Of a DNA stretch of 64,000 nucleotides, positions 24,579 to 64,000 are shown piece after piece. The translations under genes and the position numbers were made by a program. The stretch spans positions 24,043,501 to 24,107,500 of the forward strand of contig CM075770.1 in assembly GCA_037974665.1 (NCBI GenBank), in the 5' to 3' direction. The stretch comes from Ehretia macrophylla. Its lineage: Eukaryota > Streptophyta > Magnoliopsida > Boraginales > Ehretiaceae. Below the pieces are notes generated by a model, which saw nothing but the letters and a program-made list of their open reading frames with translations, did no database searches and was not told the DNA's origin. Position 1 is the first letter of the stretch; each line of letters opens with the position of its first letter.

Positions 24579-24581
24579 GGG

Positions 24582-34315: not shown

Positions 34316-34373
34316 GGAGCAACAGCATCCAGCTTTATTTCAAGGTAGTATTGAATTTCGGGACAAAATTCTT

Positions 34374-40682: not shown

Positions 40683-41243
40683 GTCATGTTGTGGGCACAA
40701 ATCCTTTATGTGTTGACGGTTCACAATCCCAACCCAGAGAGATGGCCTATTCAAAAAGCCCAATGGGCTTAACGACAATCCATCCGCTTCAACAACGCAG
40801 CATCCTTGAAAGACGTGATATCGACGTGTGGTAGGGCCCTGTAATATCCCGCGAGTTAGGTTGTCGTCCTTTTAACAGCTCACGACGTACAATTCGGGAC
40901 GACAAAATAGTGTAAAAGAAGAAAAGTGGCCCAAAACTGATGAAAATGTTCGATTTTGGGCTCCGAAAACAGGGGGAGCCAAGCAAGCTTGTTGCCCCCA
41001 ACGTAGAGCTCTCGAAGAGCTTTCCAACGGTATGCTGTTCATCGCGTAACTACTTACGGATTTAAAGTTATGGGCACTGGAGCAACGGAGACCTGGTCAC
41101 AAGCACACACCCTAGATTTGTAGGCCTAGCCTCTACGTGAAGTGAAGTTGTCTTGCCCAAGGTGCCGTGGGATTCGTTAATAGAAATGTGGTGGATAAAG
41201 TATCTTAACAACCCTAACTGGGGCAAAAAAGATTGAAAAGGGG

Positions 41244-41361
41244 GGGTGCAACACGAAGACTTCTCAATGGGTCACCCATCCTAGTACTACTCTCGCCCAA
41301 GCACTCTTAACTTCGGAGTTCTGATGGGATCCGGTGCATTAGTGCTAGTATGATCGCATTC
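41244..41361 (-). rRNA. 5S rRNA gene copy 24 (degenerate)
   Basis: About 8 differences, one in box A and two near the start. Shares the AATGGGTCACCC and GCACTCTTAAC variants with copy 39. Confidence 0.82.
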
Positions 41362-41924
41362 GTCATGTTTTGGGCACAAATCCTTTATGTGTTGACGGTT
41401 CACAGACCCAGCCCAGAGCGATAGCCCATTGAAAAGGCCCAAAGGGCTTAACGACAACCCATCCACATCAACAACGTAGTATCCTCGTAGGACGTGATAT
41501 CGACGCATTGTAGGGTCCTCTAATGTCTAGTGAGTTAGGTTGTCTTCCTTTTAACAGCTCACAACGTACGATCCGGGATAAAAAAAACATAGCAAAAGAA
41601 GAAAAGTGACCCGAAACTGATGAAAACGTTCGGCTTTGGGCTCTAAAAATTGGTGCAGCCGAGCAAGCTTGCTGCCCCCGTCGTAGAGCTCTCAGAGAGC
41701 TTTCCAACGGTATGCTGTGCATCTTGTAACTCCTTTTGGATCAGAAGTTATGGGCACCATAGTGACGGAGACCTGGTCACAAGCCCTATGCCCTCAGTTT
41801 GTCGGCCCAGCCTCTACGTGAAGCGAAGTTGTCTTGCCCAAGGTGCCGTGGGATTCGGTAATAGAAATGTGGTGGATAAAGTATCTTGCCAACCCTAACT
41901 AGGGCAAAAAAAATTGAAAAGAGG

Positions 41925-42042
41925 GGGTGCAACACGAGGACTTCCCAGGGGGTCACCAATCCTAGTACTACTCTCGCCCAAACACTCTTAACTTCGGAGT
42001 TCTGATGGGATCCGGTGCATTAGTGTCGGTATGATCACACCT
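41925..42042 (-). rRNA. 5S rRNA gene copy 25
   Basis: About 7 differences, with box C and box A hit. First gene of the second duplication half; partner of copy 6. The solo LTR sits 165 bp upstream of its start. Confidence 0.83.
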
Positions 42043-42201
42043 GTCATGTTGTGGGTACAAATCCTTTATGTTTTGACGGTTCACAGTCCCAGCCCAGAGA
42101 GATGGCACATTCAAAAGGCCCAAAGGGCTTAACGACAACCCATCCACTTCAACAACGCAGCATCCTCGCAAGACGTGATATCGAGGCATTGTAGGGCCCT
42201 C

Positions 42202-45034
42202 TAATGTGTGATAACCCGAACCCGGATGCATTTATTAGCACTTGATTGCATTTGATTAAATGTTTAATTAGTTAAATCATCTAATTTTCACTATTTTGCT
42301 ATTTATTTTAGAAGAATTCGAAAAGGATTTATATTATTTGATTAAAAGATTATTACCTATTTCTAATCATTGTAGTAATTGAACTTATTCTCTTGTGATT
42401 AATTAAGTGTCGTCTTAAATGTTAATATTTAATTGCACTTGATTACATGTTTATATTTATTTGTTCATTTGTAACTTAACATTAACTTCATAATTCTTTA
42501 AAATATTCTAGGAATAGTTAAATTAATTGATTTTAAATGAATATTGATTACTTTGACTATTTTGATTATTTTAAAAATCGGTTTTAATTTTCTTGCATTA
42601 AATTACTCGGTTTTCAATTAAATGAGAAAAGTAACTCCGAGCCGGAGTTAATTTTAAACTATTCTACTTTTCAAAGAATTAGAGTTTTATATTATTTTTC
42701 ATCACTTTATTAGCGATCGATTAGTGACCGTTCGATCGTAGAATTTCAAAAATAAGAGTTAGAGAAATATTTTTCGGATTTAGTGAAAAATGTTTTTAGC
42801 TTAATTTAACTAGTTTTAGTTGTTTTTCATTTAATTTCATTGTTTTAACTTGAATTAGATTTAATGGCATCAAAATAAGCTTATTCGATTATTTTTAACT
42901 AAAGTTTGATTTTGCAAAAGACCAAAATGCCCTTTGTCACCTAATAAATAATAAAACAAGGCTAAAATAAAAAAAAACAATTTGCAAAATGCCTCCTATG
43001 TCCTAGCCATGACCGAAAATCACAAGGAAGAAAGAAAGATGATTTTTCTTGCATTTTCTTCTACAATTGCGCGTGGAATTGCTCAGGTGTCGTGGCTCGG
43101 GTCCTTGCGGGTCTTGGTCTTCAATCTCTGTGAGGGTTTTCATGCTTTTGTGCATATAAAATGAAATTTGATTTTTGATACAAATTTTTAGATTTGATAT
43201 TTAATGCGTTATAATGCCTGAATTGATTGGAAATGCTTCTTTAGGGTTCGTAGAGTATTGCTTGATAGTTATTTAGAAATTTTTACGATTGAAACTGCGT
43301 ATTTGAAATTGGGGAAAAATAATGAATAGTGAATTATGAATAGTAAACCCTAGAATTTTGAATTTCGATCTGAATTGCGATTGCTTGATTTGGATAGGTG
43401 CCATTAGTGATAGAAAGCTAAAATGTGAAATAAAAATGGATCGGCCTTTGTTAAAATTGAAAATTAGATAAAGAAACGTAAAGGGTCCGTTTGACCAAAA
43501 GTTGACCGTGCTCGAATTGAGTTGGGGGTTTCGTAATTGAGGGCATGGAAGCACTTTTGGCGTTGTTGTGGCGTTGATTGAATGACCGGTTAGCATAGCT
43601 GTAGTTCAAACGCGGTAGGTGGACTTTCGGGTCTCGGGTGAGAAAGTGAAGTTTAGTGACATAGAAACGTGCCTTGTAGTACCTGAGTGAATGTAGTGAA
43701 ATTGGTTTCCTAATTCCGTAGCTCGTTTGCTTGTAATTGTTCTTGGAAGTTGGGGTTGAATAGTAATATTTGTTGTTTTCGTGTTTGAACTGCCGTTACT
43801 TGTTTAATTGTTGTTATTGTTGCTTATTATTACTTGTTATGCTTGAAAAGTTAGTTGAATGCTAGTATTGATTGAGATTGCTTGTTATCTCGTTTGTTGT
43901 CACTAGTTTGTATTGTTATGCTATCGCTCGTTTATTGCCTTGTATCGAGTCTTGCATTGCATAGTGTCTCGCGCGTGAGTGATGGGCCTCTCTGGGTAGC
44001 CTCGGGTTGCCAGTTTTGGTTGCTCTAGCTCCACTGCTATTCCCTTTTCTCGCTTGGGTTGCCTCCTAGGGAGATTTGGGTCGTAGAATTGATGGATACT
44101 TCCGGGGTATTCCAACTGGTGTTATAAGGTGGATGCACGCTTATTGTCATCTTTGTCAACATCAAGCTCGAGATTGATGTATCGCTCGTGTAATGGTACA
44201 TTGCTTGTATGAGTGAACCACAACCTTCAGAGTGTGGTATAGTTTTAAAGGGCTGTGTTAATGCTTTCTTGATTGTTTCTAGTATTGTTGTTTGTATTGA
44301 ATGTTTCCTTATTGTCTTTATTGCTTAACTGTGTTTATTTGCATTGCACGATCTTCTTTCTCTCCAACTCGATATCTGTCTCGCCCTCACTGAGTATACG
44401 TGTTGTGTATACTCACTCCTCACCATCACATTTCAGGAAATGCCATGTTAGTTGGAAAGTTCGTGATTATGTGTTAGTTCGGGCCTGAAGAGTTGTCTTG
44501 CGTGCTTTGTGGCTTGAGCTGTCAAAGATGTAAAGATGTATGTTCATATGTTGTATGTATTTATTGTTAAAAGAAATGTAATTTAATCTAACTAAGTAGT
44601 TGAGGTAGATTGATAAGTTAGTTATATATTCAGTAGTATAGTTAACCTCGATGCATGTTTGTAATTGTCTAAAAGAAAAGAGTGAGAATGGTATGATAGT
44701 ATATTTTGTGCAGTAGATTAGTATGGATTAAATGTCAAGCTTGAATGTTCTTGTAAAAGATGTAAATAGATAGGTTAATTTTAAACTGGAAATGTATATT
44801 TATATGTTGTGTTTAGTTGTTGAGAACCAAGGCTCGGATGGCCTTAAGGTGGTTGAATGTTTGGACATGGTATTGGTCCACTTATATGCTGTCGCAGGTT
44901 TTTACATTTCGCCTAGAAACAGGGGAGACTCCGTCCGTTTTCCCTGAAAATTTATGCCCGGGTTTGGTTTGGGTTGTGATTAGATTGATTTATAGAACTC
45001 CCGGTCTCGAGAGGGATCGGGGTGTTACATAATG
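42202..45034 (+). mobile_element. Solo LTR, distant Tekay relative
   Basis: A 2823-bp block (42207-45029) begins TGTGATAACCCGAACCC, ends GGGGTGTTACA and is flanked by the perfect duplication TAATG (42202-42206, 45030-45034). There is no internal second terminus, primer site or coding domain, so it is a solo LTR left by LTR-LTR recombination. It shares with the Tekay LTRs the TGCATTGCATA anchor (about 43953), the TTCTCGCTTGGG / GGGTCGTAGAATT block and a CACTGAG...ACTCACTC block (about 44389-44415), so it is a diverged relative. The corresponding site in the first duplication half (about 6924) is empty. Confidence 0.87.
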
Positions 45035-45431
45035 TCCCGCGAGTTAGGTTGTCGTCCTTTTTACAACTCACGACGTACGATCTGGGACGGAAAAACATAG
45101 CAAAAGTAGAAAAATGGCCCGAAACTGATGAAAACATTCAATTTTAGGCTCCAAAAATGGACGCAGGCGAGCAGACTTGCTACCCCCGTCGTGGAGCTCT
45201 TGAAGAGCTTTCTAACGGTATGTTGTGCGTCGCGTAACTCCTTACGCATCAAAAGTTGTAGGCACTGGAGCGACGGAGACTTGGTCACAAGCCCTACGCC
45301 CTCAGTTTGCTGGCCCAGCCTCTACGTGAAGCGAAGTTGTCTTGCCCAAGGTGCTTCGTGATTCGGTAATAGAAATATGGCAGATAAATTATCTTGGCAA
45401 CCCTTACCAGGGTAAAAAAATTTGAAAAGAG

Positions 45432-45549
45432 GGGTGCAACATGAGGACTTCCCAAGGGATTACCCATCCTAGTACTACTCTCGCCCAAGCACGCTTAACT
45501 TCGGAGTTTTGATGGGATCCGGTTTATTAGTGCTGCTATGATCGCACCC
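45432..45549 (-). rRNA. 5S rRNA gene copy 26, upstream region deleted
   Basis: About 8 differences, one in box C. Like its partner copy 7 it lacks the spacer beyond about -20, including CATAAA. Confidence 0.83.
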
Positions 45550-45888
45550 GTCATGTTGTGGGCACAAAAAGTGGCCAGAAACTGATGAATACGTTCAATT
45601 TTGGGCCCCAAAAACGGGCGCAACCGAGCACGCTTGTTGTCCCCGTCGTAGAGCTCTCTGAGAGCTTTCCAATAGTATGCTGTGCGTCGCGTAACTCCTT
45701 ACAGATGAAAAGTTATGGCCACCGGAGTGACGGAGACCTGGTCACAAGCCCTACGCCCTCGGTTTGCGGGCCTAGTCTCTACGTGAAGCGAAGTTGTCTT
45801 ACCTAAGGTGCCGTGGGATTCGGTAATAGAAATATGGTGGATAAATTATCTTGGCAACCCTAACAGGGGCAAAAAAAATTGAAAAGGG

Positions 45889-46006
45889 GGGTGCAACACG
45901 ATAACTTCCCAGGGGGTCACCCATTCTAGTACTACTCTTGCCCAAGCACGCTTAACTTCAGAGTTCTAATGGGATCCGGTGCATTAGTGCTGGTATGATC
46001 ACACCC
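45889..46006 (-). rRNA. 5S rRNA gene copy 27
   Basis: About 7 differences, including box C and the intermediate element. Partner of copy 8. Confidence 0.83.
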
Positions 46007-46568
46007 GTCATGTTGAGGGCACAATTCCTCTATGTGTTAACGACTCACAGTCATAACCCAGAGAGATGGCCCATTCAAAAGGCCCAATGCGCTTAACGAC
46101 ATCCCTTCCGCTTCAACAACACAGCATCTTTGTAAGACGTGATATCGACGCGTGGTAGGGCCCTGTAATATCCCACGAGTTACGTTGTCTTCCTTTTAAT
46201 AGCTCACGACGTACGATCCGGGATGAAAAAATAGAGCAAAAGAAGAAAAGTAGCCTGAAACTGATGAAAACGTTTGATTTTGGGCTCCGAAAATAGGCAC
46301 AGCCGAGCAGGCTTGTTGCCCTCATCGTAGAGCTCTCGGAGAGCTTTCCAATGGTATGCTGTGTGTTGCGTAACTCCTTACGGATTAAAAGTTATGGGCA
46401 CCGGAGCGACGGAGACCTGGTCACAAGCCCCACGCCCCCGGTTTGCGGGCGCAACTTCTACGTGAAGCGAAGTTGTCTTGCCCAAGGTGCCGTGGGATTC
46501 GGTAATAGAAATGTGGTGGATAAAGTATCTTGGCAATCCTAACTGGGGCAAAAAAAATTGAAATGGGG

Positions 46569-46686
46569 GGGTGCAACACAAAGACTTCCCAGGGGGTCAC
46601 CCATCCTAGTACTACTCTCGCCCAAGCACGCTTAACTTTGGAGTTCTGGTGGGATCTGGTGCATTAGTGCTGGTATGATCGCACCC
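46569..46686 (-). rRNA. 5S rRNA gene copy 28
   Basis: About 5 differences, none in the mapped internal control region; CATAAA is present. Partner of copy 9. Confidence 0.86.
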
Positions 46687-47246
46687 ATCATGTTGTGGGC
46701 ACAAATCCTTTATGTATTGACGGTTCACAGTTCCAGCCCAGAGAGATGGCCCATTCAAAAGGCCCAAATGGCTTAACGACAATCCATCCCCTTCAATAAT
46801 GCAGCATCCTCGCAAGACGTGATATATACGCGTTGTAAGGCGCTCTAATGTCCCGCGAGTTAGCTTGTCGTCCTTTTAACAGCTCACGACGTACGATCCA
46901 GGACGAAAAAACAAAGGAGAAGAAGAAAAGCATCTCAAAACTAATAAAAATGTTCGATTTTGGGCTCCAAAAATGGGCGCAACAGAGCACGCTTGCTGCC
47001 CCCATCGTAGAACACTCGAAGAGCTTTCCAACGGTATGTTGTGCGCCGCGTAACTCCTTATGGATGAAAAGTTATGGGCACCAGAGCGACGGAGACTGGT
47101 CACAAGCCCTACGCCCTCGGTTTGCGGGCCCAGGCTCTACGACAAGCAATGTTGTCTTGCCCAAGGTGCCGTGGGATTCGGTAATAGAAATATGGTGGAT
47201 AAATTATCTTGGCAACCCTAACTGGGGCAAAAAATATTGAAAATGG

Positions 47247-47364
47247 GGGTGCAACACGAGAACTTCCAAGGGGGTCACCCATCCTAGTACTACTCTTGTC
47301 CAAGCACGCTTAACTTCGGAGTTCTAATGGGATCCGGTGAATTAATGCTGGTATGATCGCACCT
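47247..47364 (-). rRNA. 5S rRNA gene copy 29 (degenerate)
   Basis: About 8 differences. One of two copies present here but missing from the first half, where the deletion junction near 8827 lies. Confidence 0.82.
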
Positions 47365-47925
47365 GTCATGTGGAGGGGATTATTCCATTATGTGTTGACG
47401 GTTCACAGTCTCAGCCCCGAAAGATGGCCCATTTAAAAGGCCCAATGGGCTTAACGACATCCTTTCCGCTTCAACAACTCAGCATCCTCGTAATAGGTGA
47501 TATCAACAAGTGGTAGGGCCCTGTACTATCCAGTGAGTTAGGTTGCCTTCCTTTTAACAGCTCACGACGTACAATCCGGGATGAAAAAACATAGCAAAAG
47601 AAGAAAAGTGGCCTGGAACTGATGAAAATGTTCGATTTTGGGCTCCGAAAACATGCGCAGCTGAGCAGGATTGATGCACCGATCGTAAAGCTCTCGGAGA
47701 GCTTTCCAACGGTATGTTGTGCGCCGTATAACTCCTTACGGATGAAAAGTTATGGGCACCGGCTCGACGAAGACCTGGTCACAAGCCCTACGCCCTCGGT
47801 TTGCGGGCCCAGCCTCTACGTGAAGCGAAGTTGTCTTGCCTAAGGTGCCGTGGGATTCGGTAATAGAAATATGGCGGATAAATTATTTTGGCAACCCTAA
47901 CTGGGGCAAAAAAAATTGAAATGGG

Positions 47926-48043
47926 GGGTGCAACACGAGGACTTCCCAGAGGGTCACCCATCCTAGTACTACTCTCGCCCAAGCACGCTTAACTTTGGAG
48001 TTCTGATGGGATCCGGTGCATTAGTACGGGTATGATCGCACCC
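47926..48043 (-). rRNA. 5S rRNA gene copy 30 (well preserved)
   Basis: About 4 differences, none in the internal control region; upstream CATAAA and the T-run terminator are kept. Also absent from the first half. Confidence 0.88.
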
Positions 48044-48601
48044 GTCATGTTGAGGGCACAATTCCTTTATGTGTTGACGGTTCACAGTCCCAGTCCAGAG
48101 AGATGGCCCATTCAAAAGGCCCAATGGGCTTAACGATAACTCATCCGCTTCAACAACGCAACATCCTCGCAAGACGTGATATCTACGCGTCGTAGGGCCC
48201 TCTAATGTCCTGCGAGTTAGGTTGTCGTCCTTTTAACAGCTCACGAGGTACGATTCGGTACGAAGAAATAGAGCAAAAGAAGAAAAGTGTCACGAAACTG
48301 ATGAAAACGTTCGATTTTGGCTCCAAAAATAGGCACAGCTGAGCAGGCTTGCTACCCTCGTCGTAGAGCTCTCGGAGAGCTTTTCAACGGTATGTTGTGC
48401 GTCGCGTAACTCCTTACAGATCAAAAGTTATAGGCACCAGAGCAACAGAGACCTGGTCACAAGCCCTACGCCTCGGTTTGCAGGCCCAGCCTCTACGTGA
48501 AGCGAAGTTGTCTTGCCCAAGGTGCCATGGGATTCGGTAATAGAAATGTGGTGGATAAAGAATCTTGACAACCCTTACCGGGGCAAACAAAATTGAAAAG
48601 G

Positions 48602-48719
48602 GGGTGCAACACGAGGACTTCCAAGGGGGTCACCTATCCTAGTACTACTCTCGCCCAAGCACGCTTCACTTCGGAGTTCTGATGGGATCTGGTGCATTAG
48701 TGCTGGTATGGTCGCACTC
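48602..48719 (-). rRNA. 5S rRNA gene copy 31
   Basis: About 6 differences, with box C and box A hit. Partner of copy 10. Confidence 0.84.
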
Positions 48720-49281
48720 GCCATATTGAGGGCACAATTCCTTTATGTGTTCACAATTCACAGTCCCAGCCGAGAGAAATGGCCCATTCAAAAGGCCGAA
48801 TGGGCTTAACGACAACCCATCCGCTTCAACAAAGCAGTATCCTCGCAAGACGTGATATCGACGCATTGTAAGGACCTCTAATGTCCAGCGAGTTAGGTTG
48901 TCGTCCTTTTAACAGCTCACAACGTATGATTCGGGATGAAAAAATAGAGCAAAAGAAGAAAAGTGGCCTAAAACTGATGAAAACGTTCAATTTTGGGCTC
49001 TAAAAACAAGTGCAGCAAAGCAGGCTTGATGCACACATCGTAGAGCTCTCGGAGAGCTTTCCAACGGTATGCTGTGCGTCGCGTAATTCTTTACGGATTA
49101 AAAGTTATAGGCACCGGAGCGGCGGAGACCTGGTCATAAGCCCCACGCCCTCGGTTTGCGGGCCCAACCTCTACGTGAAGCGAAGTTGTCTTGCCTAAGG
49201 TGCCGTGGGATTCGGTAATAGAAATGTGGTGGATAAAGTATCTTGGCAAACCTAGCTAGGGCAAAAAAAATTGAAAGGGAG

Positions 49282-49399
49282 GGGTGCAAGACAAAGACTT
49301 CCCAGGGGGTCACCCATCCTAGTACTACTATCGCCGAAGCACGCTTAACTTCGGAGTTCTGATGGGATCCGGTGCATTAGTGTTGGTATGATCGCACCC
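49282..49399 (-). rRNA. 5S rRNA gene copy 32
   Basis: About 6 differences, in the intermediate element and at the box A edge among others. Partner of copy 11. Confidence 0.84.
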
Positions 49400-49960
49400 G
49401 TCATGTTGTGGGTACAAATTCTTTATGTGTTGACGGTTCACAGTCCCAGCCCAGAGAGATGGCCCATTCAAAAGGCCCAAAGGGCTTTACAACAACCCAT
49501 CCCCTTCAACAACGCAGCATCCTTGCAAGACGTGATATCGACGCATTGTAAGGCCCTCTATTTTCCCGCGAGATACGTTGTTGCCCTTTTAACAGCTCGC
49601 GACGTACGATCCGGGATGGAAAAACAGAGCAAAAGAAGAAAAGTGGCTTGGAACTGATGAAAACGTTCGATTATCGGCTCCAAAAACGGGCGTAGCGAAG
49701 AACGCTTGCTGGCCCCATCGTAGAACTATCGGAGAGCTTTCTAACGGTATGCTGTGCACCGCGTAACTCCTTACGGATGAAAAGTTATGGGCACCAGAGC
49801 GACGGAGACCTGGTCACAAGCCCTACGCCCTCGGTTTGCGGGCCCAGCCTCTACGTAAAGTGAAGTTGTCTTGCCCAAGGTACCGTGGGATTCGGTAATA
49901 GAAATATGGTGGATAAATTATCTTGGCAACCCTAACCGTGGCAAAAAAAATTGAAAAGTG

Positions 49961-50078
49961 GGGTGCAACATGAGGACTTCCCAGGGGGTCACCCATCCTA
50001 CTACTACTCTCACCCAAGCACGCTTAACTTCGGAGTTCCGATGGGATCCGGTGCATTAGTGCTGGTATGATCGCACCC
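49961..50078 (-). rRNA. 5S rRNA gene copy 33
   Basis: About 4 differences, one at the intermediate element edge. Partner of copy 12. After it the order jumps: the next unit matches that of copy 15, so copies 13 and 14 have no counterpart here. Confidence 0.86.
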
Positions 50079-50639
50079 GTCATGTTGAGGGCACAATTCC
50101 TTTATGTGTTGACGGTTCACAATCCCATCCCAGAGAGATGGCCCATTCAAAAGGCCCAATGGGCTTAACGACAACCCATCCGCTTTGACAACACAGCATC
50201 CTCGCAAGATGTGATATCGAAGCGTTGTAGGGCCCTCTACTGTCTCGCCAGTTAGGTTGCCGTCCTTTTAACAACTCACGACGTACGATCCGAGTCGGAA
50301 AAATAGAGCAAAAGAAGAAAATTGGCCCGAATCTGATGAAAATGTTCGATTTTGGGCTCCAAAAATAGGCACAGCCGAGCAGACTTGCTGCCCCCCTTGT
50401 AGAGCTCTCGGAGAACTTTCCAACGGTATGCTGTCCACCGCGTAACTCCTTACGGATCAAAAGTTATGGGCACTAGAGCGACGGAGACTTGATGACAAGC
50501 CCTACGCCCTCGGTTTGTGGGCCCAACCTCTACGTGAAGCGAAGTAGTCTTGCCCAAGGTGCCATTGGATTTGGTAATAGAAATGTGGTGGATAAAGAAT
50601 CTTGGCAACCCTAACCGGGGCAAAAAAAATTGAAAAGGT

Positions 50640-50757
50640 GGGTGCAACCCGAGAACTTCCCAGGGGGTAACCCATCCTAGTACTACTCTCGCCCAAGCAT
50701 GCTTAACTTCGGAGTTCTGATGGGATCCGGAGCATTAGTGCTGTTATGATCGCACCC
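50640..50757 (-). rRNA. 5S rRNA gene copy 34
   Basis: About 6 differences, one in box C and one in box A. Partner of copy 15. Confidence 0.84.
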
Positions 50758-51224
50758 GTCATGTTGAGGGCACAATTCCTTTATGTGTTGACGGTTCACA
50801 TTCCCAGCCCAGAGAGATGGCCCATTCCAAAGGTCCAATGGGCTTAATGACAACACATCCGCTTCGACAAGGCAGCATCCACGCAAGACATGATATCAAC
50901 GCATTGTAGGGCCCTCTAATGTCCCACGAGTTAGGTTGTTGTCCTTTTAACAGCTCACGACGTACGATCTGGGACGGAAAAACAGAGCAAAAGAAGAAAA
51001 CTGTCCTGAAACTGATGAAAACATTCGATTTTGGGCTCCAAAAATAGACACAGCCGAGCAGACATGCTGCCCCCCTCGTAGAGCTCTCGGAGAACTTTCC
51101 AACGGTATGCTATGCACTGCGTAACTCCTTACGGATCAAAAGTTATGGGCACTAGAGCGATGGAGACCTGATGACAGGCCCTACGCCCTCGGTTTGCGGG
51201 TCCAGCCTCCACGTGAAGTGAAGT

Positions 51225-51480
51225 CGTCTTGCCCAACGCAGAATCCTCGCAAGACGTGATATCGACACTTTGTAAGGCCCTCTAATGTCCCACGAGTTAG
51301 GTTGTCGTCCTTTTAACAGCTCACGACGTACGATCCGAGACGAAAAAACAAAGGAAAAGAAGAAAAGTGGCCAGAAACTAATGAAAACGTTTGATTTTGG
51401 GCTCTGAAAACATGTGCAGCTTAGTAGGCTTGCCGCCCTCATCGTAGAGCTCTCTGAGTGCTTTCTAACGGGTCACCCAT
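51225..51480. other. Rearranged array stretch with two deletion joins
   Basis: At about 51236 the spacer end (CTTGCCCAA) is joined to CGCAGAATCCTCGCAAGACG, losing a whole 5S gene. At about 51470 the spacer (CTTTCTAACG) is joined straight into the middle of a 5S gene. Copies 16-18 of the first half have no counterpart here. Confidence 0.75.
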
Positions 51481-51562
51481 CCTAGTACTACTCTTGCCCA
51501 AGCACGCTTAACTTCGGAGTTCTGATGGGATCCGGTGCATTAGTGCTGGTATGATCGCACCC
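51470..51562 (-). pseudogene. 5S rRNA gene copy 35, truncated
   Basis: RNA positions 1 to about 93 are present with a single difference (in the intermediate element); the last ~25 positions and the terminator are missing. It corresponds to copy 19, the gene hit by the Tekay element in the other half. Confidence 0.88.
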
Positions 51563-52124
51563 GTCATGTTGTGGGCACAAATCCATTATGTGTTGACGGT
51601 TCACTGTCCCAGCCCAGAGAGATGGCCCATTCAAAAGGCCCAATGGGCTTAACGACATCCCATCCGCTTCAACAACGCAGCATCCTCGTAAGACGTGATA
51701 TCGACTCATGGTAGGGCCCTGTAATATCTCGCGAGTTAGGTTGTCTTCCTTTTAACAGATCACGACGTACGATCCGGGATGAAAAAACAGAGCAAAAGAT
51801 GAAAAGTGGCCAAAAACTAATGTAAACGTTTGATTTTGGGCTCTGAAAACATGCGCAGCATAGTAGGCTTGCCGCCCTCGTCGTAGAGCTCTCTGAGTGC
51901 TTTCTAACGGTATGTTGTGCGTCATGTAACTCTTTACGGATTAAAAGTTATGGGCACCGAAATGACGGAGACCTGGTCACAAGCCCCACACCCTCAGTTT
52001 GCAGGCCCAACCTTTACGTGAAGCGAAGTTGTCTTGCCCAAGGTGCTGTGGGATTCGCTAATAGTAATGTGGTGGATAAAGTATCTTGGCAACCCTAGCT
52101 GGGGCAAAAAAATATGAAAAGGGG

Positions 52125-52242
52125 GGGTGCAACACGAAGACTTCCCAGGGGGTCACCCATACTAGTACTACTCTCGCCCAAGCACGCTTAACTTCGGAGT
52201 TCTAATAGGATCCGGTGCATTAGTGCTGGTATGATAGCTCCC
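52125..52242 (-). rRNA. 5S rRNA gene copy 36
   Basis: About 6 differences, one in box C. Partner of copy 20. Confidence 0.84.
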
Positions 52243-52803
52243 GTCATGTTGTGGGCACAAATCTTTTATGTGTTGACGGTTCACAGACCCAGCCCAGAGA
52301 GATGGCCCATTCAAAAGGCCCAAAGGGCTTAACGACAACCTATCCCCTTCAACAACGCAGCATCCTCGCAAGACGTGATATCGACACGTTGTAGGGCCCT
52401 CTAATGTCCCGCGAGTTAGGTTGTCGTCCTTTTAACAGCTCACAATGCACGATCTGGGACTAAAAAACAGAGCAACAGATGAAAAGGTGCCTGAAACTGA
52501 TGAAAACATTCAATTTTGGGCCCCAAAAACGGGCGCAGCCGAGCACGCTTGATGCCCCTGTCGTAGAGCTCTCGGAGAACTTTCTAACGCTATGCTGTGC
52601 GCCGTGTAACTCTTTACGGATGAAAAGTTAAGGGTATCGGAGCGACAGAGACCTTGTCACAAGCCCTACGCCCTCGATTTGCGGGCCCAATTTCTACGTG
52701 AAGTGAAGTTGTCTTACCCAAAGTGCCATGGGATTCGGTAATGGAAATATGGTGTATAAAGAATCTTGGCAACCCTAAACGGGGCAAAAAATATTGAAAA
52801 TGG

Positions 52804-52921
52804 GGGTGCAACACGAGGACTTCCCAGGGGGTCACCCATCCTAGTATTACTCTCGCCCAAGCGCGCTTAATTTCGGAGTTCTGATGGGATCCGGTGCATT
52901 TGTGCTGGTATGATCGCACCC
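52804..52921 (-). rRNA. 5S rRNA gene copy 37
   Basis: About 4 differences, two in box A. Partner of copy 21; both have an ATATTGAAAATGGGGG terminator flank. Confidence 0.86.
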
Positions 52922-53482
52922 GTCATGTTGAGGGCACAATTCCTTTATGTGTTGACGGTTCACAGTCCCAGCCCAGAGAGATGGCCCATTCAAAAGGCCC
53001 AAAGGGCTTAACGATAACCTATCCGCTTCAACAACGCAACATCCTCGAAAGACGTGATATCTATACATTGTAGGGCCCTCTAATGTCCCACGAGTTAGGT
53101 TGTCGTCCTTTTAACAGCTCACGACGTACGATTCAGGTCGAAAAAACGGAGAAAAAATAGAAAAGTGTCCCGAAACTAATGAAAATGTTCGATTTTTGGC
53201 TCCAAAAACAAGCGCAGCTGACCAGTCTTGCTGCCCTCGTCGTAGAGCTCTCGGAGTGCTTTTATACGGTATGTTGTGCACCGCGTAACTCCTTACGAAT
53301 CAAAAGTTATGGGCACCAGAGCAACGGAGACCTAGTCACAAGCCCTACGCCCTCAATTTGCGGGCCCAGCCTCTACGTGAAGCGAAGTAGTCTTGCCCAA
53401 GGTGCCTTGGTATTCGGTAATAGAAATGTGGTGGATAAAGTATCTTGGCAACCCTAACCGAGGCAAAAAAAATTGAAAAGGG

Positions 53483-53600
53483 GGGTGCAACGTGAGGACT
53501 TCCCAGGGGGTCACCCATCCTAGTACTACTCTCTCCCAAGCACGCTTAACTTCGGAGTTCTGATGGGATCTGGTGCATTAGTGCTGGTATGATCGCTCCC
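53483..53600 (-). rRNA. 5S rRNA gene copy 38
   Basis: About 5 differences. Partner of copy 23. The unit of copy 22 is missing between copies 37 and 38, consistent with loss of one unit by unequal recombination. Confidence 0.85.
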
Positions 53601-54110
53601 GTCATGTTGTGGGCACAAATCCTTTATATGTTGATGGTTCACAGTCCCAACCCAGAGAGATGGCCCATTCAAAAGGCCCAATGGGCTTAAAGACAATCCA
53701 TCCACTTGGACGACGCAGCATTCTCGAAAAACGTGATATCGACGTGTGGTAGGGCCCTGTAATATCCCACGAGTTAGGTTGTCGTCCTTTTTACAGCTCA
53801 CGACGTACAATCCGGGATGAAAAAATAGTGCCAAAGAAGAAAAGTGGCCCAAAACTGATGAAAATGTTCGATTTTGGGCTCCGAAAACAGGAGGAGCTCT
53901 CGGAGCGCTTTCCAACGGTATGCTGTCCATCGCGTAACTACTTATGGATTAAAAGTTATGGGCACCGGAGTGACGGAGACCTGGTCACAAGCCCAGCCTC
54001 TACGTGAAGTTAAGTTGTCTTGCCCATGGTGCCGTGGGATTCGTTAATAGAAATGTGGTGGATAAAGTATCTTAGCAACCCTAACTGGGGCAAAAAAAAT
54101 TGAAAAGGGG

Positions 54111-54228
54111 AGGTGCAACACGAGGACTTGTCAATGGGTCACCCATCCTAGTACAACTCTCACCCAAGCACTCTTAACTTCGGAGTTCTGATGGGATCCG
54201 GTGCATTAGTGCTGGTATGATCGCATCC
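54111..54228 (-). rRNA. 5S rRNA gene copy 39 (degenerate)
   Basis: About 9 differences, including box A and the intermediate element edge. Partner of copy 24. The spacer just before (about 53890) has lost ~45 bp, giving a 628-bp unit. Confidence 0.82.
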
Positions 54229-54789
54229 GTCATGTTTTGGGCACAAATCCTTTATGTGTTGACGGTTCACAGACCCAGCCCAAAGAGATGGCCCATTGAA
54301 AAGGCCCAAAGGGCTTAACGACAACCCATCCAAATCAACAACGCAGTATCCTCGTAGGACGTGATATCGACGCATTGTAGGCTCCTCTAATATCCAGTGA
54401 GTTAGGTTGTCGTCCTTTTAACAGCTCACGACGTACGATTCGGGACGAAAAAACAGAGCAAAAGAAGAAAAGTGACCCGAAACTGATGAAAACATTCGAC
54501 TTTGGGCTCCAAAAATAGGTGCAGCAGAGCAAGCTTGCTGCCCCCGTCGTAGAGCTCTCGGAGAGCTTTCCAACGGTATGTTGTGCACCTTGTAACTCCT
54601 TACAGATTAGAAGTTATGGGCACCAGAGTGACGGAGACATGGTCACAAGCCCTACGCCCTCGGTTTGCGGGCCCAGCCTCTACGTGAAGCGAAGTTGTCT
54701 TGCCCAAGGTGCCGTGGGATTCGGTAATAGAAATGTGGTGGATAAAGTATCTTGGCAACCCTAATCGCGACAAAAAAAATTTAAAAGAG

Positions 54790-54795
54790 GGGTGC
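54790..54795 (-). pseudogene. 5S rRNA gene copy 40, 6-bp remnant at TRIM border
   Basis: GGGTGC, the last six positions of a 5S gene in the expected register (679 bp after copy 39), abuts the TRIM. The rest of the gene is not on the other side. Confidence 0.7.
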
Positions 54796-55005
54796 TATGG
54801 CGCTCCCACATCGAAAAATTAGGAAGTGATGCAGCTGTGTATAAGGGGGCGACTCCTTGTACAAGCCACAACGCGTTTTCACGTGGGAGACCGCGTGAGG
54901 AACAAAGCCGTGAGAGTATTGGTTCCCTTCGGGGCTTGCTCAAAGCGGACAATATTGTGGTAGTGTGCGGCTCGTGCCCGTGATAAACCGTGGCGGGTCG
55001 TTACA
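54796..55005 (+). mobile_element. 5' LTR of TRIM
   Basis: 210 bp, with the CCCACATCG phrase near the start that recurs in plant TRIM and small LTR elements, ending GTCGTTACA. Confidence 0.92.
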
Positions 55006-55009
55006 TAAA

Positions 55010-55022
55010 TGGTATCAGAGCC
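55010..55022 (+). other. Primer binding site, initiator Met tRNA (TRIM)
   Basis: TGGTATCAGAGCC, 4 bp after the 5' LTR. Confidence 0.93.
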
Positions 55023-55071
55023 TACCGGGGCGACCCGGCGTTGTGACGTTAGCCCCCGAGGGCGCGTGCCT

Positions 55072-55086
55072 CTTAAGGGGGTGGAG
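55072..55086 (+). other. Polypurine tract (TRIM)
   Basis: TTAAGGGGGTGGAG-type run directly before the 3' LTR. Confidence 0.85.
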
Positions 55087-55296
55087 TGTGGCGCTCCCAC
55101 ATCGAAAAATTAGGAAGTGATGCAGTTGTATATAAGGGGGCGACTCCTTGAACAAGCCACAACGCGTTTTCACGTGGGAGACCGCGTGAGGAACAAAGCC
55201 GTGAGAGTACTGGTCCCCTTTGGGGCTTGCTCAAAGAGGACAATATTGTGGTAGTGTGCGGCTCGTGCCCGTGATAAACCGTGGCGGGTCGTTACA
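55087..55296 (+). mobile_element. 3' LTR of TRIM
   Basis: 210 bp, starts TGTGGCGC and ends GTTACA; followed at once by spacer satellite (GACAGATACCTGGTCAC). Confidence 0.92.
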
Positions 55297-56084
55297 GACA
55301 GATACCTGGTCACTAGCCCCATGCCCTTGGTTTGCGGGCCCAACCTCTACGTGAATTGAAGTTGCCTTGCCCAAGGTTCCGTGGGATTCGGTAATAGAAA
55401 TGTGATGGATTAGGTTGTTGTCATTTTCGCGGCTCACGATGTACGATCCGGGATTAAAAAAAATAACAGAAAAGAAGAAAAGTGTCCTGAAACTGATGAA
55501 AATGTTTGATTTTGGGCTCTGAAAATAGGTGCAACCGAGCAGGCTTGTTGTCCCCGTTGTAGAGCTCTCGGAGAGCTTCCCAACGGTATGCTGTGCGCCG
55601 TGTAACTCCTTACGGATCAAAAGTTATAGGCACCGGAACGACGGATACCTGCTCTCTAGCCCCACACCCTCGGTTTGCGGGCCCAGCCTCTACTTGAATT
55701 GAAGTTGTCTTGCCCAAGGTACCGTGGGATTTGGCAATAGAAATATGATGGATTAGGTTGTTGTCCTTTTTGCGGCTCACGACATACAACCCGGGACAAA
55801 AAAACAACGCAAAAGAAGAAAAGTATCCCGAAACTGATGAAAACGTTCAATTTTGGGCTCTAAAAATAGGTGCGGCCGAGCAGGCTTGCTGTCCCCGTTG
55901 TAGATCTCTCGGAGAGCTTTCCAACGGTATGCGGTGCGCCGTGTAACTCCTTACGAATCAAAAGTTATGGGTACCAGATCGACGGATACCTGGTCACTAG
56001 CCCCACACCCTCGGTTTGCGGGCCCAGCCACTACTTGAATTGAAGTTGTCTTGCCCAAGATGCCTTAGGATTCGGTAATAGAAA

Positions 56085-57785
56085 TGTGATGGATTAGGTT
56101 ATCGTTCTTTTCTCGGCTCACGACGTATGATCTGGGACAGAAAAACAGTGCAAAAGAAGAAAAGTGTCCCAAAACTGATGAAAATGTTCGGTTTTGGGAT
56201 CCAAAAATAGGCACAGCCGAGCAAGCTTGCTACCCCCGTCGTAGAGCTCTTGGAGAACTTTCCAACGGTATGCTGTGCGCCACGTAACTCCTTACGGATC
56301 AAAAGTTTTGAGTACCGGATCAACGGAGACCTGGTCCAAGCCCTACGCCCTCGGTTTGCGTGCCCAGCCTCTACGTGAAGCGAAGTTGTCTTGCCCATGG
56401 TGTCGTGGGATTCGGTAATAGAAATGTGATGGATTAGGTTGTCATCCTTTTCGCGGCTCACGACGTACGATCTAGGATGAAAAAATAGCGCAAAGGAAGA
56501 AAAGTGTCCTGAAACTGATGAAAACATTCAATTTTGGGCCCTAAAAATAGGCGCAGCCGAGCAGGCTTGCTCCCCCGGTCGTAGAGCTCTCAGAGTGCTT
56601 TGCAATAGTATGATGAACCCCACGTAACTCCTTACGGATCAAAAGTTATGGGCATCGGAGCGACGGATACCAGGTCACTAGCCCTACGCCCTCGGTTTGC
56701 GGGCCAATCCTCTACGTGAATTCAAGTTGCCTTGACCAAGGTGCCATAGGATTCGGTAATAAAAATGTGATGGATTAGGTTGTCGTCCTTTTCGCGGCTC
56801 ACGACATACAATCCGGGACAAAAAAATAACGTAAAAGAAGAAAAGTGTCCCGAAACTGATGAAAATGTTCAATTTTGGGGTCCGAAAATGGGAGCAGCCA
56901 AGCAAGATTGCTGGCCCCATCGTAGAGCTCTCAGAGAGATTTCCAACAGTATGTTGTGTGTCGCGTAACTCCTTACGGAACAAAAGTTATGGGCATCGGA
57001 GCGATGGATACGTGGTCACAAGCCCCACGCCCTCGGTTTGCGAGCCCAGCCTCTATGTGAATTGAAGTTGTCTTTCCCAAGGTTCCGTGGGATTCGGTAA
57101 TAGATATGTGATGGATTAGGTTATCATCCTTTTCACGGCTCACGACGTATGATCCGGGATAGAAAAATAATGCAAAAGTTGAAAAGTATCCCGAAATTGA
57201 TGAAAACATTCGATTTTGTTCCCCGAAAACAGGCGCAACCAAGCAGGTTTGTTGCCCCCGTCGTAGAGCTCTCGGAGAACTTTCCAACGGTATGTTGTGC
57301 ACTGCTTAATTCCTTACGGATGAAAAGTTATGGGTACCTGATCGACGGACACCTGGTCCCAAGCCCCACGCCCTTGGTTTGCGTGCCCAGCCTCTACGTG
57401 AAGCGAAGTTGTCTTGCCTAAGGTGCCGTGGGATTCGGTAATAGAGATGTGATGGATTAAGTTGTCGTTCTTTTCGCGGTTCACGACGTACGATCCGGGA
57501 CGGAAAAATAGCGCAAAGGAAGAAAGGTGTCTTGAAACTGATGAAACATTCGATTTTGGCTTTAAAAATAGGCGCAGTCAAGCAGGCTTGCTCCCCCCGT
57601 TGTAGAGCTCTCAGAGTGCTTTCCAATAGTATGTTGTACGCCGCGTAACTCCTTATGGATCAAAAGTTATGGGCACCGGAGCGACGCAGACCTGGTCCCA
57701 ATCGTTACGCCCTCGATTTTCGGGCCTAGCCTCTACGTGAAGCATAGTTGGCTTGAAAAGGTGCCATGGGATTCGGTAATAGAAA
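56085..57785. repeat. Trimeric higher-order pattern in satellite
   Basis: Monomers three apart resemble each other: the monomer starting 56425 (GAGTGCTTTGCAATAG, CTCCCCC) recurs at 57448, and that starting 56085 (GGATCAACGGAGACC) at 57107 (TGATCGACGGACACC). Period about 1.02 kb. By eye, two rounds only. Confidence 0.5.
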
Positions 57786-58792
57786 TGTGATGGATTAGGA
57801 TGTCATCCTTTTTGCGGCTCACGACGTACGATCTGGGACGAAAAAATAGTGCAAAAGAAGAAAAGTGTCCCAAAATAGATGAAAACATTCAATTTAGGGC
57901 TCCGAAAACAAGCGCAGTCGACCAAGCTTGCTGCCCCCGTCGTAGAGCCCTCAGAGAGTTTACCAATGGTATGTTGTGCGCCACGTAACTCCTTACAGAT
58001 CAAAAGTTATAGGCACCGGAGCGACAGAGACCTGGTCCCAAGCCCCATACCGTCGGTTTGCGGGCCCAGCCTCTATGTGAAGCGAAGTTGTCTTCCCCAA
58101 AGTGCAATGGGATTCGATAATAGAAATGTCATGGATTAGGCTATCGTCCTTTTTGCGGCTCACGATCTACGATCTGGGATGAAAAAATAGCACAAAAGAA
58201 GAAAAGTGTCCCGAAACTGATGAAAATGTTCGATTTTGGGATCCGAAAATAGGTGCAGCCGCACAGGCTTGCTGCCCCCGTTGGAAAGCTATCGTACGTT
58301 GTGCACCACGTAACTCCTTACGGATCAAAAGTTATGGGCACCGGAGCGACAGATACCTGGTCACAAGCCCCACGTCCCCAGTTTGCAGGCCCAGCCTCTA
58401 CGTGAAGACAAGTTGTCTTGCAAAAGGTGCCATGGGATTCCATATTAGAATTGTGATGGATTAGGTAGTCGTCTTTTTTGCGGCTCAACACGTACTATCC
58501 AGGACGAAAAAACAGAGCACAAGAAGAAAAATGTCCCGAAACTGATGAAAACGTCCAATTTTGGGCTCCAAAAATAGTCGCAGCTGTGCAGGCTTGCTGC
58601 CCCCGTCATAGAGCTCTCGAAGAGCTTTCAAACGGTATGTTGTTCGCCGCGTAACTTCTTACGGATCAAAAGTAATTGGCACCGGAGCGACAGATACCTG
58701 GTCATAAGCCCCACGCCCGCGATTTGCGGGCCCAGCCTCTACGTGAAGTGAAGTTGTCTTGCCCAAGGTGTCCTGGAATTCGGTAATAGAAA
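57786..58792. repeat. Three-monomer block T1-T2-T3, copy 1
   Basis: T1 carries AAAATAGATGAAAACATTCA and GTCGACC; T2 carries TTTTGGGATCCGAAAATAGG and a GCAAAAGGTGCCATGGGATTC end; T3 carries ACGTACTATCCAGG and CACAAGAAGAAA. The block recurs at 60828 and 62532. Confidence 0.65.
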
Positions 58793-60827
58793 TGTGGTGG
58801 ATTAGGTTGTCGTCCTTTTCGCGGCGCACGATGTACGATCCAGGACGAAAAAATAGCGCAAATGAAGAAAAGTGCCCTAAGATAGATGTAAACGTTCAAT
58901 TTTGGTCTCTGAAAACAAGTGCAGCCGAGCAAACTTGCTGCCCCCGCCATAGAGCTCTCGGGGAGCTTTCCAACGGTATGCTGTGCACCGCGTAACTCCT
59001 TACGGATCAAAAGTTACAGGCACGGGAGTGACATAGACCTGGTCCCAATTCCTACGCCCTCGGTTTGCGATCCCAGCCTCTACGTGAAACGAAGTTGACT
59101 TGAAAAGGTGCTATGGGATTCGCTAATAGAAATGTGGTAGATTAAGTTCTGGTCCTTTACGCGGTGCACGACGTACGATCCGGGACGGAAAAATAGTGCA
59201 AAAGAAGAAAAGTGTCCTGAAACTGATGAAAACGTTCGATTTTGGGCTCCAAAAGTAGGTGCAGCCAAGCAGACTTGTTGCCCCCGTCATAGAGTTCTCA
59301 GAGAGCTTTCCAACGGCATGATGTGCGTCGCGTAACTCCTTACAGATCAAAAGTTATGGGCACCAGAGCGACGGAGACCTGGTCCCAATTCTTACGCCCT
59401 CGATTTGCGGGCCCAGCCTCTACGTGAAGCGAAGTTGACTTGAAAAGGTGCCATGGGATTTGCTGATAGAAATGTGGTGGATTAGGTTGTTATCCTTTTC
59501 ACGACGCACGACGTACGATCTGGGATGAAAAAACAGCGCAAAAGAAGAAAAGTGCCCTAAGATAGATGAAAACGTTCAATTTTGGGCTCCGAAAATAGGC
59601 GCAGCCAAGCAGGCTTGCTGCCCCCAACATAGAGCTCTCAGAGAGCTTTCCAACAGTATGTTGTGTGACGCGTAACTCCTTACAGATCAAAAGTTATGGG
59701 CACCGGAGCGACGAAGACCTGGTCCCGATTCTTACGCCCTCGGTTTGCGGGCCCAGCCTCTACGTGAAGCGAAGTTGACTTGAAAAGGTGGCATAGGATT
59801 CGGTAATAGAAAAGTGGTGGATTAGGTTGTCGTCCTTTTCACGGCGCACGACGTACGATCCGGGACGGAAAAACAGTGCAAAAGAAGAAAAGTGTCTTGA
59901 AACTGATGAAAATGTTTGATTTTGGGCTCCAAAAATAGGTGCAGCCGAGTAGACTTGCAGCCTCTGTCATAGAGCTTTCAGAGAGCTTTCCAACGGTATG
60001 TTGTGCGCCGCATAACTCCTTACGGATCAAAAGTTATGGGCACCGGAGCGATAGAGACTTGGTCGCAATTCCTACGCCCTCGGTTTGCGTGCCCAGCCTC
60101 TACGTGAAGCGAAGTTGACTTGAAAAGGTTCCATGGGATTCGCTAATAGAAATGTGGTGGATTAGGTTGTCGTCCTTTTCGCGGAGCACGACGTACGATC
60201 CGGGATGGAAAAACTGCACAAAAGAAGAAAAATGTGCTAAGATAGATGAAAATGTTCAATTTTGGGCTCCGAAAACAGGCACAGCTGAGCAGGCTCACTA
60301 CCCCCATCATAGAGCTCTCAGAGAGCTTTCCAACGGTATGTTGTGCGCTTCGTAACTCCTTACAGATCAAAAGTTATGGGCACCGGAGCGACGGAGTTCT
60401 GGTCCCAATTCTTACGCCCTAGGTTTGCGGGCCCAGCCTCTACGTGAAGCGAAGTTTACTTGAAAAGGTGCCATCGGTAATAGAAATGTGGTGGATTAGG
60501 TTGTCATCCTTTTTCACGGTGCACGACGTACGATCCGGGACGGAAAAATAACGCAAAAAAAGAAAAGTGTCCTAAAATTGATGAAAATGTTCGATTTTGG
60601 GCTCCAAATACAGGTGTAGCCGAGTAGACTTGTTGCCGCCGTCATAGAGCTCTCGGTGAGCTTTCCAACTGTATGATGTGCGCCGTGTAACTCCTTACGG
60701 ATCAAAAGTTATGGGCACCAGAGCGATGGAGACCTGGTCCCAATTCCTACGCCCTCGGTTTGCGGGCCCAGCCTCTACGTGAATAGAAGTTGACTTGAAA
60801 AGGTGCCATGGGATTCGCTAATAGAGA
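58793..60827. repeat. Dimeric higher-order repeat A-B in satellite, three rounds
   Basis: A monomers (58793, 59473, 60153) have CTAAGATAGATG and TTCAATTTTGG; B monomers (59133, 59813, 60487) have CTGAAACTGATG or close and TTCGATTTTGG. All share TTGACTTGAAAAGG and the GCGGCGCACGACG variant instead of GCGGCTCACGACG. The period is about 680 bp. Confidence 0.72.
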
Positions 60828-61853
60828 TATGGTAGATTAGGTTGTCGTCCTTTTTGCGGCGCACGACGTACGATCCGGGACGAAAAAACAGCACAAAAGA
60901 AGAAAAGTGCCCCAAGAAAGATGAAAACGTTCAATTTTGTGCTCTGAAAAAAGACGTAGTCGACCAAGCTTGCTACCCCCGTCGTAGAGCTCTCGGAGAG
61001 CTTACCAACGGTATGCTGTGCGCCGCATAACTCTTTACGGATCAAAAGTTATGGGCACCGGAGCGACGGAGACCTAGTCCCAAGACCAACGCCCTCGGTT
61101 TGCAGGCCCAGCCTCTACGTGAAGCGAAGTTGTCTTCCCCAAGGTGCCATGGGATTCGGTAATAGAAATGTAATGGATTAATTAGGCTATCGTCCTTCTT
61201 GCGGCTCACGATGTACGATCCGGAATGAAAAAACAGCGCAAAAAAAAAAATTATCCCGAAACTGATGAAAATGTTCGATTTTGGGATCCAAAAATATATG
61301 CAGCCGAGCAAGCTTGCTGCCCCCATTGTAGAGCTCTCGGATAGCTTTCCAACGGGATGCTGTGAACTGCGTAACTCTTTACGGATCAAAAGTTATTGGC
61401 ACCGGATTGACGGATACCTGGTCCCAAGCCCCACGCCCCCGATTTGCAGGCCCAGCCTCTACGTGAAGTGAAGTTCTCTTGCAAAAGCTGCCATGGGATT
61501 CCGTATTAGAAATGCGATGGATTAGGTGGTCGTCCTTTTCGCGGCTCACGACGTACTATCCAGGACGAAAAAATAGCGCACAAGAAGAAAAGTGTCCCGA
61601 AACTAATGAAAACGTTAGATTTTGGGCTCCAAAAACAGGCGCAGCTAAGCTGGCTTGCTACCCCCGTCATAGAGCTCTCGAAGAGCTTTCAAACGGCATG
61701 CTGTGCGCCAGGTAACTCCTTACGGATCAAAAGTTATTGGCACCGGAGCGACGGATACCTGGTCATAAGCTCCACGCCCGCGGTTTTCAGGCCCAGCCTC
61801 TATGTGAAGTGAAGTTGTCTTGCCCAAGGTGTCCTGGGATTCGTTAATAGAAA
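60828..61853. repeat. Three-monomer block T1-T2-T3, copy 2
   Basis: Starts 3042 bp (nine monomers) after copy 1. T1 has GTCGACCAAGC, T2 TTTTGGGATCC, T3 ACGTACTATCCAGG with CACAAGAAG. T1 is also A-like, linking the block to the dimer array. Confidence 0.65.
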
Positions 61854-62531
61854 TGTGATGGATTAGGTTGTTGTCCATTTTGCGGCTCACGATGTATGAT
61901 CTTGGATGAAAAAACTACGCAAAAGAAGAAAAGTGTCCCGAAACTAATGAAAAGGTTCGATTTTGGGCTCCGAAAGTAGGTGCAGTAGAGGAGGCTTGCT
62001 TCCCTCGTCGTAGAGCTCTCGGAGAGCTTTCCAACAATATGCTTGGCGGCGCGTAACTCCTTACGGATCAAAAGTTATGGGCACCGGAGCGACGGATACC
62101 TAGTCACAAGCCCCACGCCCTCAGTTTGTGGAACCAGCCTACGTGAAGCCAAGTTGGCTTGCAAAAGGTGCTTTGGGATTCGATAATAGAAATGTGATGG
62201 ATTAGGTTGTCGTCCTTTTTGCGGCTCACGACGTACGATCCGGGACAGAAAAACAGCAAAAAAAAAGAAAAGTGTCCCAAAACTTTTGAAAATGTTCAAT
62301 TTTCGACTCCAAAAAAGGCACAGCCAAGCAAACTTGCTGCTGCCATCATAGAGCTCTCGGAGAGCTTTTCAACGGAATGTTATGTGCCGCGTAACTCCTT
62401 ACAGATCAAAAGTTATGGGCACCGGTGTGACGCAGACCTGGTCCAAATCCTTAAGCCCTCGGTTTGCGGGCCCAGCCTCTACGTGAAGCGTAGTTGTCTT
62501 GAAAAGGTGCCATGGGATTCCGTAATAGAAA

Positions 62532-63553
62532 TGTGATGTATTAGGTTGTCATCCTTTTCGCAGCTCACGACGTACGATCTGGGACGAAAAAATAGCGCAA
62601 AAGAAGAAAAGTGTCCCAAAATAGATGAAAACATTCATTTAAGGGCTTCAAAAATAGGCGCAGTCGACCAGGCTTGCTGCCCCCATCGTAGAGCTCTCGG
62701 AGAGCTTACCAACGGTATGTTGTGCGCCGCATAACTCCTTACAGATCAAAAGTTATAGGCACCAGAGCGACAGAGACCTAGTCCCAAGCCCCACGACCTC
62801 GGTTTGCGGGCCCAGCCTCTACGTGAAGCAAAGTTGTCTTCCCCAAGGTACCATGGGATTCGGTAATAGAAATGTGATGGATTAGGTTGTCGTCTTTTTC
62901 ACGGCTCACGACGTACGATCCGGGATGAAAAAACAACGTAAAAGAAGAAAAGTGTCCCAAAATTGATGAAAATGTTCGATTTTGGGATCCGAAAATAGGC
63001 GCAGCCAAGCAGGCTTGCTGCCCTGTCGTAGAGCTCTTGGATAGTTTTCCAACGGTATGCTGTGCACCACGTAACTCCTTACGGATAAAAAGTTATGGGT
63101 ACCGGAGCGACGGATACCTGGTCGCAAGCCGCACGCCCCCGATTTGTGAGCCCAGCCTCTATGTGAAAGGAAGTTGTCTTGCAAAAGGTGCCATGGGATT
63201 CTGTATTAGAATTGTGATGGATTAGGTGGCTGTCCTTTTCGCGGCTCACGACGTACTATCCGGGATGGAAAAACAACGCAAAAGAAGAAAAGTGTCCCAA
63301 AACTGAAGAAAATGTTAGATTTTGGTATCCGAAAATAGACGCAGTAGAGCAGGCTTGCTACCCCCGTCGTAGAGCTCTCGGAGAGATTTTCAACAGTATG
63401 CTTTGCGCCTCGTAACTCCTTACGGATCAAAAGTTATAGGCACCGAAGTGACAGAGACTTGGTCCCAAGCCCCAAGCCCACGGTTTGCGGGCCCAGCCTC
63501 TATGTGAAGCAAAGTTGTCTTCCCCAAGGTGCCATGGGATTCGGTAATAGAAA
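62532..63553. repeat. Three-monomer block T1-T2-T3, copy 3
   Basis: Starts 1704 bp (five monomers) after copy 2, with the same three diagnostic motifs (GTCGACCAGGC; GGGATCCGAAAATAGG; ACGTACTATCCGGG). Confidence 0.65.
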
Positions 63554-64000
63554 TGTGATTAATTAGGCTATCGTCCTTTTCGTGGCTCATGACGTACGAT
63601 CCGGGACGAAAAAATAGCGCAAAAGAAGAAAAGTGCTCGAAACTAATGAAAATGTTCGATTTTGGGATCCAAAAATAGGCGTAGCCGAGCAGGCTTGCTG
63701 CCCCCGTCGTAGAGCTCTCGTATAGCTTTCCAACGGTATGCTGTGCGCCACGTAACTCATTACGGATCAAAAGTTATGGGCACCGGAGCGACGGATACCT
63801 GGTCGCAAGCCCCACGCCCCCAGTTTGCGGGCCCAGCTTCTACGTGAAGGGAAGTTGTCTTGCCCAAGGTATCGTGGGATTCGGTAATAAAAATGTGGTG
63901 GATTAGGTTGTCGTCCATTTCGCGTCTCACGACGTACGATCCGGTAAAAAAAAATAGCGCAAAAGAATAAAAGTGTCCCGAAATTGATGAATAGGTTCGA

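Follow-up and report, generated by a model that had tools for sequence, protein, structure and literature searches.

The 5S rDNA array and its LTR elements

The window, that is, the whole 64,000-nt stretch of Ehretia macrophylla DNA analyzed here, is free of gap letters and carries 39 5S genes (Rfam RF00001), every one on the minus strand. RF00001 matches and BLAST searches with the unit delimit four minus-strand segments of 5S array, which are split by LTR elements designated D, A, B and C. Segment 1 (3003–11671) has elements D (1–3002) and A (11672–22278) at its ends, segment 2 (22279–26038) lies between elements A and B (26039–37944), and segment 3 (37945–42206) between elements B and C (42207–45029). 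A TRIM-like element breaks the last unit of segment 4 (45030–54795) at base 7 of its gene module, read on the plus strand, with gene-module positions 1–52 at 54744–54795. Perfect 5-bp duplications flank elements A, B and C (CCAGC, ATTAG and TAATG, respectively), element B being inserted inside a 5S gene at 26039. Two adjoining ORFs of a Ty3-type element at 31023–34217 encode Pfam protease, reverse transcriptase, RNase H and integrase domains; we take this element to belong to a Tekay-like lineage. The 5S gene, this Ty3-type element and the TRIM-like element all point to a plant source.

The unit length of 679 bp given in an earlier note on this DNA was upheld, as 28 of 35 gene-to-gene intervals measure 676–681 bp. 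The unit at 52803–53481 (minus strand, from unit BLAST) was used as the reference for comparisons. Its 342-bp portion common to the satellite described below, referred to as the S segment, occupies positions 53095–53436.

None of the 39 gene copies is identical to the gene consensus, from which they differ at 2 to 15 positions per copy, and the supposed parent array is therefore degenerating. In an alignment of 33 modules, from which six of the 39 were left out, the gene deviates from the consensus at 5.0% of sites and the flanks at 7.6%. The 5S genes have thus experienced some past constraint, and the array is now decaying and poorly homogenized. An old block duplication is visible between 6935–42206 and 45030–54795, comprising 11 pairs of S segments in conserved order, with divergences such as 2.9% (8844/48217) and 10.2% (38821/52416), as compared to a mean of 14% among 5S copies. 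Elements A and B are found in the first block only, so their insertion probably postdates the duplication. Each block also contains one shortened unit of 457/458 bp (7322–7779 and 45431–45887) with an identical 222-bp deletion of unit positions 137 to 359.

A satellite made of 5S spacer

The remainder of the window (55297–64000), as delimited by TRF and BLAST, is occupied by a satellite that contains S only, in the orientation that S has in the 5S units, and that runs beyond the window end. TRF reports a period of 340 and 25.6 copies over this region, which resolves into 25 full monomers of ~341 bp and two partial ones (113 bp at the start and 98 bp at the window end). The earlier note had described the monomers as spacer-only, and this is borne out: each matches positions 293–634 of the 679-bp 5S unit (BLAST, query 52803–53481), the full monomers with 77.6–84.5% identity. 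The non-coding monomers follow one another in tandem, head to tail, and show homology to a portion of this genome's own 5S unit; no ORF of at least 150 aa was found among them. The missing module of 337–338 bp comprises ~45 bp of 3' flank with a T-run, the 119-bp gene and ~173 bp of upstream sequence. Its best match in the satellite has an E-value of 2.6, which is at chance level, and all 39 Rfam 5S matches fall outside the satellite; a retained gene-derived region of the PcP190 or 5SHindIII type was likewise not found in the monomers. The module is therefore wholly absent, in agreement with the clean removal proposed earlier; the preference for loss over gain that this wording implies rests on parsimony. 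No sign of a selected function was detected in either array, the satellite being devoid of gene, promoter and T-run. No lag with a clearly reduced mean distance, as expected for higher-order periodicity, was found in the satellite, and the closest single pairs of monomers are 14 and 9 monomers apart (distances 0.091 and 0.099).

All 26 joints in the satellite lie at one place, GGA/TTAGG, where the slash marks the joint. The first full copy is found at 55398–55418, with the joint at 55410, and the satellite-type joint sequence is of the GATGGATTAGG type. The surrounding bases read TGGA/TTA in 21 joints, carry a substitution in four (59142, 60837, 62541 and 63563) and a 4-base insertion in one (61182). 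The sequence AATGTGATGGA given earlier needs a correction, as its seventh base, A, is replaced by the 5S-type G in eight of the 25 full monomers. Within the 5S units the same ends read GGAT/AAAGTATC and CGAG/TTAGG, so that a single base (T) of microhomology spans the joint; beyond this overlap the breakpoints show no clear homology to each other (10 of 30 bases match). A search allowing up to three mismatches found the satellite-type joint at 22 places in the satellite and at none in positions 1–54795. The earlier claim of one joint in every monomer holds.

Separate evolution and age of the two arrays

The relationship between monomers and 5S spacers was analyzed with 35 full S copies from the 5S units and the 25 full monomers; the tree and the distances exclude partial copies, which number 8 of 43 on the 5S side and two of 27 on the satellite side. 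Mean distances are 0.141 among the 5S copies, 0.169 among the monomers and 0.176 between the groups, and 14 of 342 sites (4.1%) distinguish the two consensus sequences. In the unrooted tree, all 25 monomers group in a single clade to the exclusion of the 35 5S spacers (support 98.5/99), a split that recurs in trees of the first half of S (96.6/94) and, more weakly, of the second half (88.5/65). The tree proposed in the earlier note as a check thus recovers the monomers as one clade, and does not nest them among particular 5S units. All 50 sites with shared polymorphisms are transitions, and C to T and G to A changes make up ~55% of the departures from consensus in either group. The shared polymorphisms accordingly reflect recurrent deamination rather than exchange, and neither ancestral nor exchanged variants are needed to account for them. 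The satellite descends from a single founder joint, as indicated by the identical joint in 26 of 26 cases, the single clade of 25 monomers and the lack of intermingling, and it has evolved separately since, with no exchange detected.

Transversions between the groups amount to a distance of 0.065 per site, as compared to 0.009–0.012 for the LTR pairs of elements A and B, the value of A being slightly high because its LTR pair was aligned with ~10 outside bases. If rates are alike, the split between satellite and 5S spacers is roughly six times older than these insertions. After removal of 11 duplicate 5S units, the monomers proved more diverged from their own consensus than the 5S spacers, both for all changes (0.104 versus 0.085) and for transversions (0.035 versus 0.026, p 0.005), which argues against recent budding. 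The greater divergence is unlike that of a young derivative, but the same pattern would result if the 5S units had turned over. The satellite seems to have radiated earlier than the surviving 5S units, and the present 5S 'parent' is a relic that may be no older than the satellite radiation.

Order of events and origin of the border

The loss of the gene from a 5S unit is the preferred direction on grounds of parsimony, since a deletion of any extent yields a clean monomer, whereas an insertion needs exactly one module without a target-site duplication. Deletions inside 5S units occur in this array anyway, as evidenced by the 457/458-bp units that lack 222 bp and by others of 628–667 bp, which favors gene loss. 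That several independent losses, later homogenized, made the satellite is highly improbable: five joints differ slightly, no support was found otherwise, and all 26 lie at the same place, differ by point changes or one 4-base insertion, and belong to monomers of one clade. The reverse order we consider unlikely on balance. The S satellite would have come first, and a ~338-bp 5S module (gene, promoter and terminator), possibly circular, would have entered a single S monomer, or else a monomer would have been captured between two short 5S units, the composite 679-bp unit being amplified thereafter as 5S rDNA. The boundaries between S and module are symmetrical and fit an insertion equally, 338 bp is enough for a standalone 5S unit, and the higher divergence of the monomers points the same way. 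On the other hand, this order requires one complete module to be inserted, or exactly one monomer to be captured, without target-site duplication, and no 5S unit lacking S was encountered, such losses as occur among the 43 S matches in 1–54795 being partial only. The unrooted tree would look alike if the 5S module had been inserted into the satellite, so the nesting test proposed earlier cannot decide the direction. Non-reversible rooting without an outgroup assigned likelihood weights of 0.46 to the 5S side, 0.53 to the satellite side and 0.006 to the dividing branch; roots on the 5S side, where the single best root lies, are not rejected. The rootstrap values tilt toward the satellite (~74 per cent, versus ~23 for the 5S side and 0.1 for the dividing branch), although the satellite share comes mostly from one long monomer tip, T56775 (52.4). 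The rooting tests thus conflict and, if anything, lean toward the satellite side, contrary to the preferred gene loss. The single deletion event of the earlier note is retained as a single founder, its direction being the less certain part. A bolder version of the reverse order, which we likewise regard as unlikely, is that the 5S locus was built on the satellite, a complete transcription module having entered an older dinucleosome-sized monomer (~341 bp) and the composite (~2 × 340 bp) having become the 679-bp unit. If so, a satellite would have set the length of the rDNA repeat, not vice versa.

A second alternative concerns how the arrays came to be neighbors, and is compatible with either direction, so that the odds of the two questions are not exclusive. 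The arrays meet through the TRIM-like LTR element (54796–55296, plus strand), which is 501 bp long and comprises two LTRs of 210 bp each (54796–55005 and 55087–55296; 8 differences in 210) around an 81-bp interior. The LTRs have the form TGTGG...TTACA (TA... in the left copy), and the interior ends in primer-binding-like and polypurine-like sequences, TGGTATCAGAGC and AAGGGGGTGGAG, which are presumably the primer-binding site and the polypurine tract. The short direct LTRs beginning with TG and ending with CA, these two sites, the non-coding interior and a length under ~1 kb are typical of TRIM elements. No 5-bp target-site duplication is present: the left flank, GGTGC, lies at base 7 of the 5S gene module, and the right flank, GACAG, at S position ~229 of a monomer. 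In view of the perfect duplications of elements A, B and C, these mismatched flanks indicate that the border did not arise by simple insertion; a deletion starting at an element edge, recombination of one copy with another or a misjoin would account for it. The arrays probably became adjacent secondarily, by a later rearrangement that formed the border. Neither array shows a gradient of similarity toward the border, and monomers near it are no more 5S-like than others (Spearman -0.01, p 0.94). It is quite conceivable, if somewhat short of an even chance, that the arrays are not neighbors by descent at all, the border joining two TRIM copies through ectopic recombination between distant arrays or through the assembler. 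The flanks without duplication and the missing gradient are in favor of this, but a deletion from one end of a single TRIM element between arrays already close fits as well, and the window is free of gap letters. Amplification beside the parent array, as the earlier note had it, needs qualification in view of the intervening element with its mismatched flanks, the lack of a gradient and the apparently older satellite radiation.

Returning to gene loss, we infer the following history, to which we assign a probability of about 0.6. End joining at one base of microhomology would have removed the 338-bp module (terminator, gene, promoter and upstream region) from one 5S unit. The leftover spacer piece of ~341 bp, without a Pol III signal, may then have been amplified in tandem, either by unequal exchange or by rolling-circle copying of an excised circle. 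The satellite would subsequently have diverged from the 5S spacers, up to the consensus difference of 4.1%, and both arrays would have decayed with slight homogenization. Rearrangement at the TRIM-like element presumably formed the present border later. Satellites are mostly found without their source. The locus described here combines an exact joint, a satellite of one clade and homologous spacers in one contig with a supposed source array in decay, and offers a clear test case for the conversion of gene repeats into gene-less satellites, or of satellites into gene repeats. It illustrates a common origin of the two kinds of array, whichever came first and however they came to be neighbors. 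The locus also cautions against taking an array border for a birthplace, as the arrays are joined here by an LTR element with mismatched flanks.

Satellites derived from 5S rDNA are already known, and the unusual feature of the present one is a spacer-only array beside 5S units in one contig. A 2025 review, in the parts accessible, names the intergenic spacers of rRNA genes among the sources of satellites and cites 5S-derived cases (PMC12692304). PLsatB of the Plantago lagopus B chromosome (Kumke et al. 2016, as cited in PMC6410184) is likewise a plant satellite of 5S rDNA origin and of comparable monomer length (325 bp); as summarized there, it differs in including 5S rDNA fragments and in being B-specific, whereas the present repeat has no gene sequence and shares a contig with 5S units. 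The frog satellite PcP190, according to the account in PMC7806164, is also derived from 5S rDNA and often associated with 5S clusters on the chromosomes, but it keeps a gene-derived region of ~120 bp, whereas here the spacer is kept and the gene is missing. 5SHindIII of the fish Hoplias malabaricus (Martins et al. 2006, as cited in PMC5437419 and PMC12692304) originated from 5S rDNA as well; as far as described, a 5S-like stretch remains recognizable in it and has been aligned to 5S genes (PMC5437419). Satellites derived from the 35S rDNA intergenic spacer in potato and Vicia sativa (references in PMC12692304) resemble the present one in that the source is, by that account, a spacer and not a gene, the spacer being that of 35S there and that of 5S here. 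None of the 5S-derived, spacer-derived or gene-lacking satellites in the literature searched, with partial coverage of subscription journals, was recognized as the present repeat, which is no proof of its being unpublished.

The S segment itself displays no internal duplication of ~170 bp and no homology to the gene module, with scores no better than those of shuffled sequences (p 0.59–0.76). Derivation of S from the LTR elements of the window was rejected, the best match having an E-value of only 1.2. Pattern scans for a conserved S stretch gave 0 matches each in viral contigs and in genome contigs, as expected for eukaryotic DNA, and are silent on relatives. An imperfect inverted repeat, CCGTCGTAGAGCTCTC/GAGAGCTTTCCAACGG, is found in S at 54544–54576, its arms being 81% complementary and separated by 1 nt. 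It is followed by TTACGGATCAAAAGTTATG, the least variable 20-bp bin of the satellite (0.066); similar words presumably occur in plant LTRs. The lengths of the monomer and the unit are ~2 and ~4 times 170 bp, and it may be conjectured that nucleosome spacing lies behind them.
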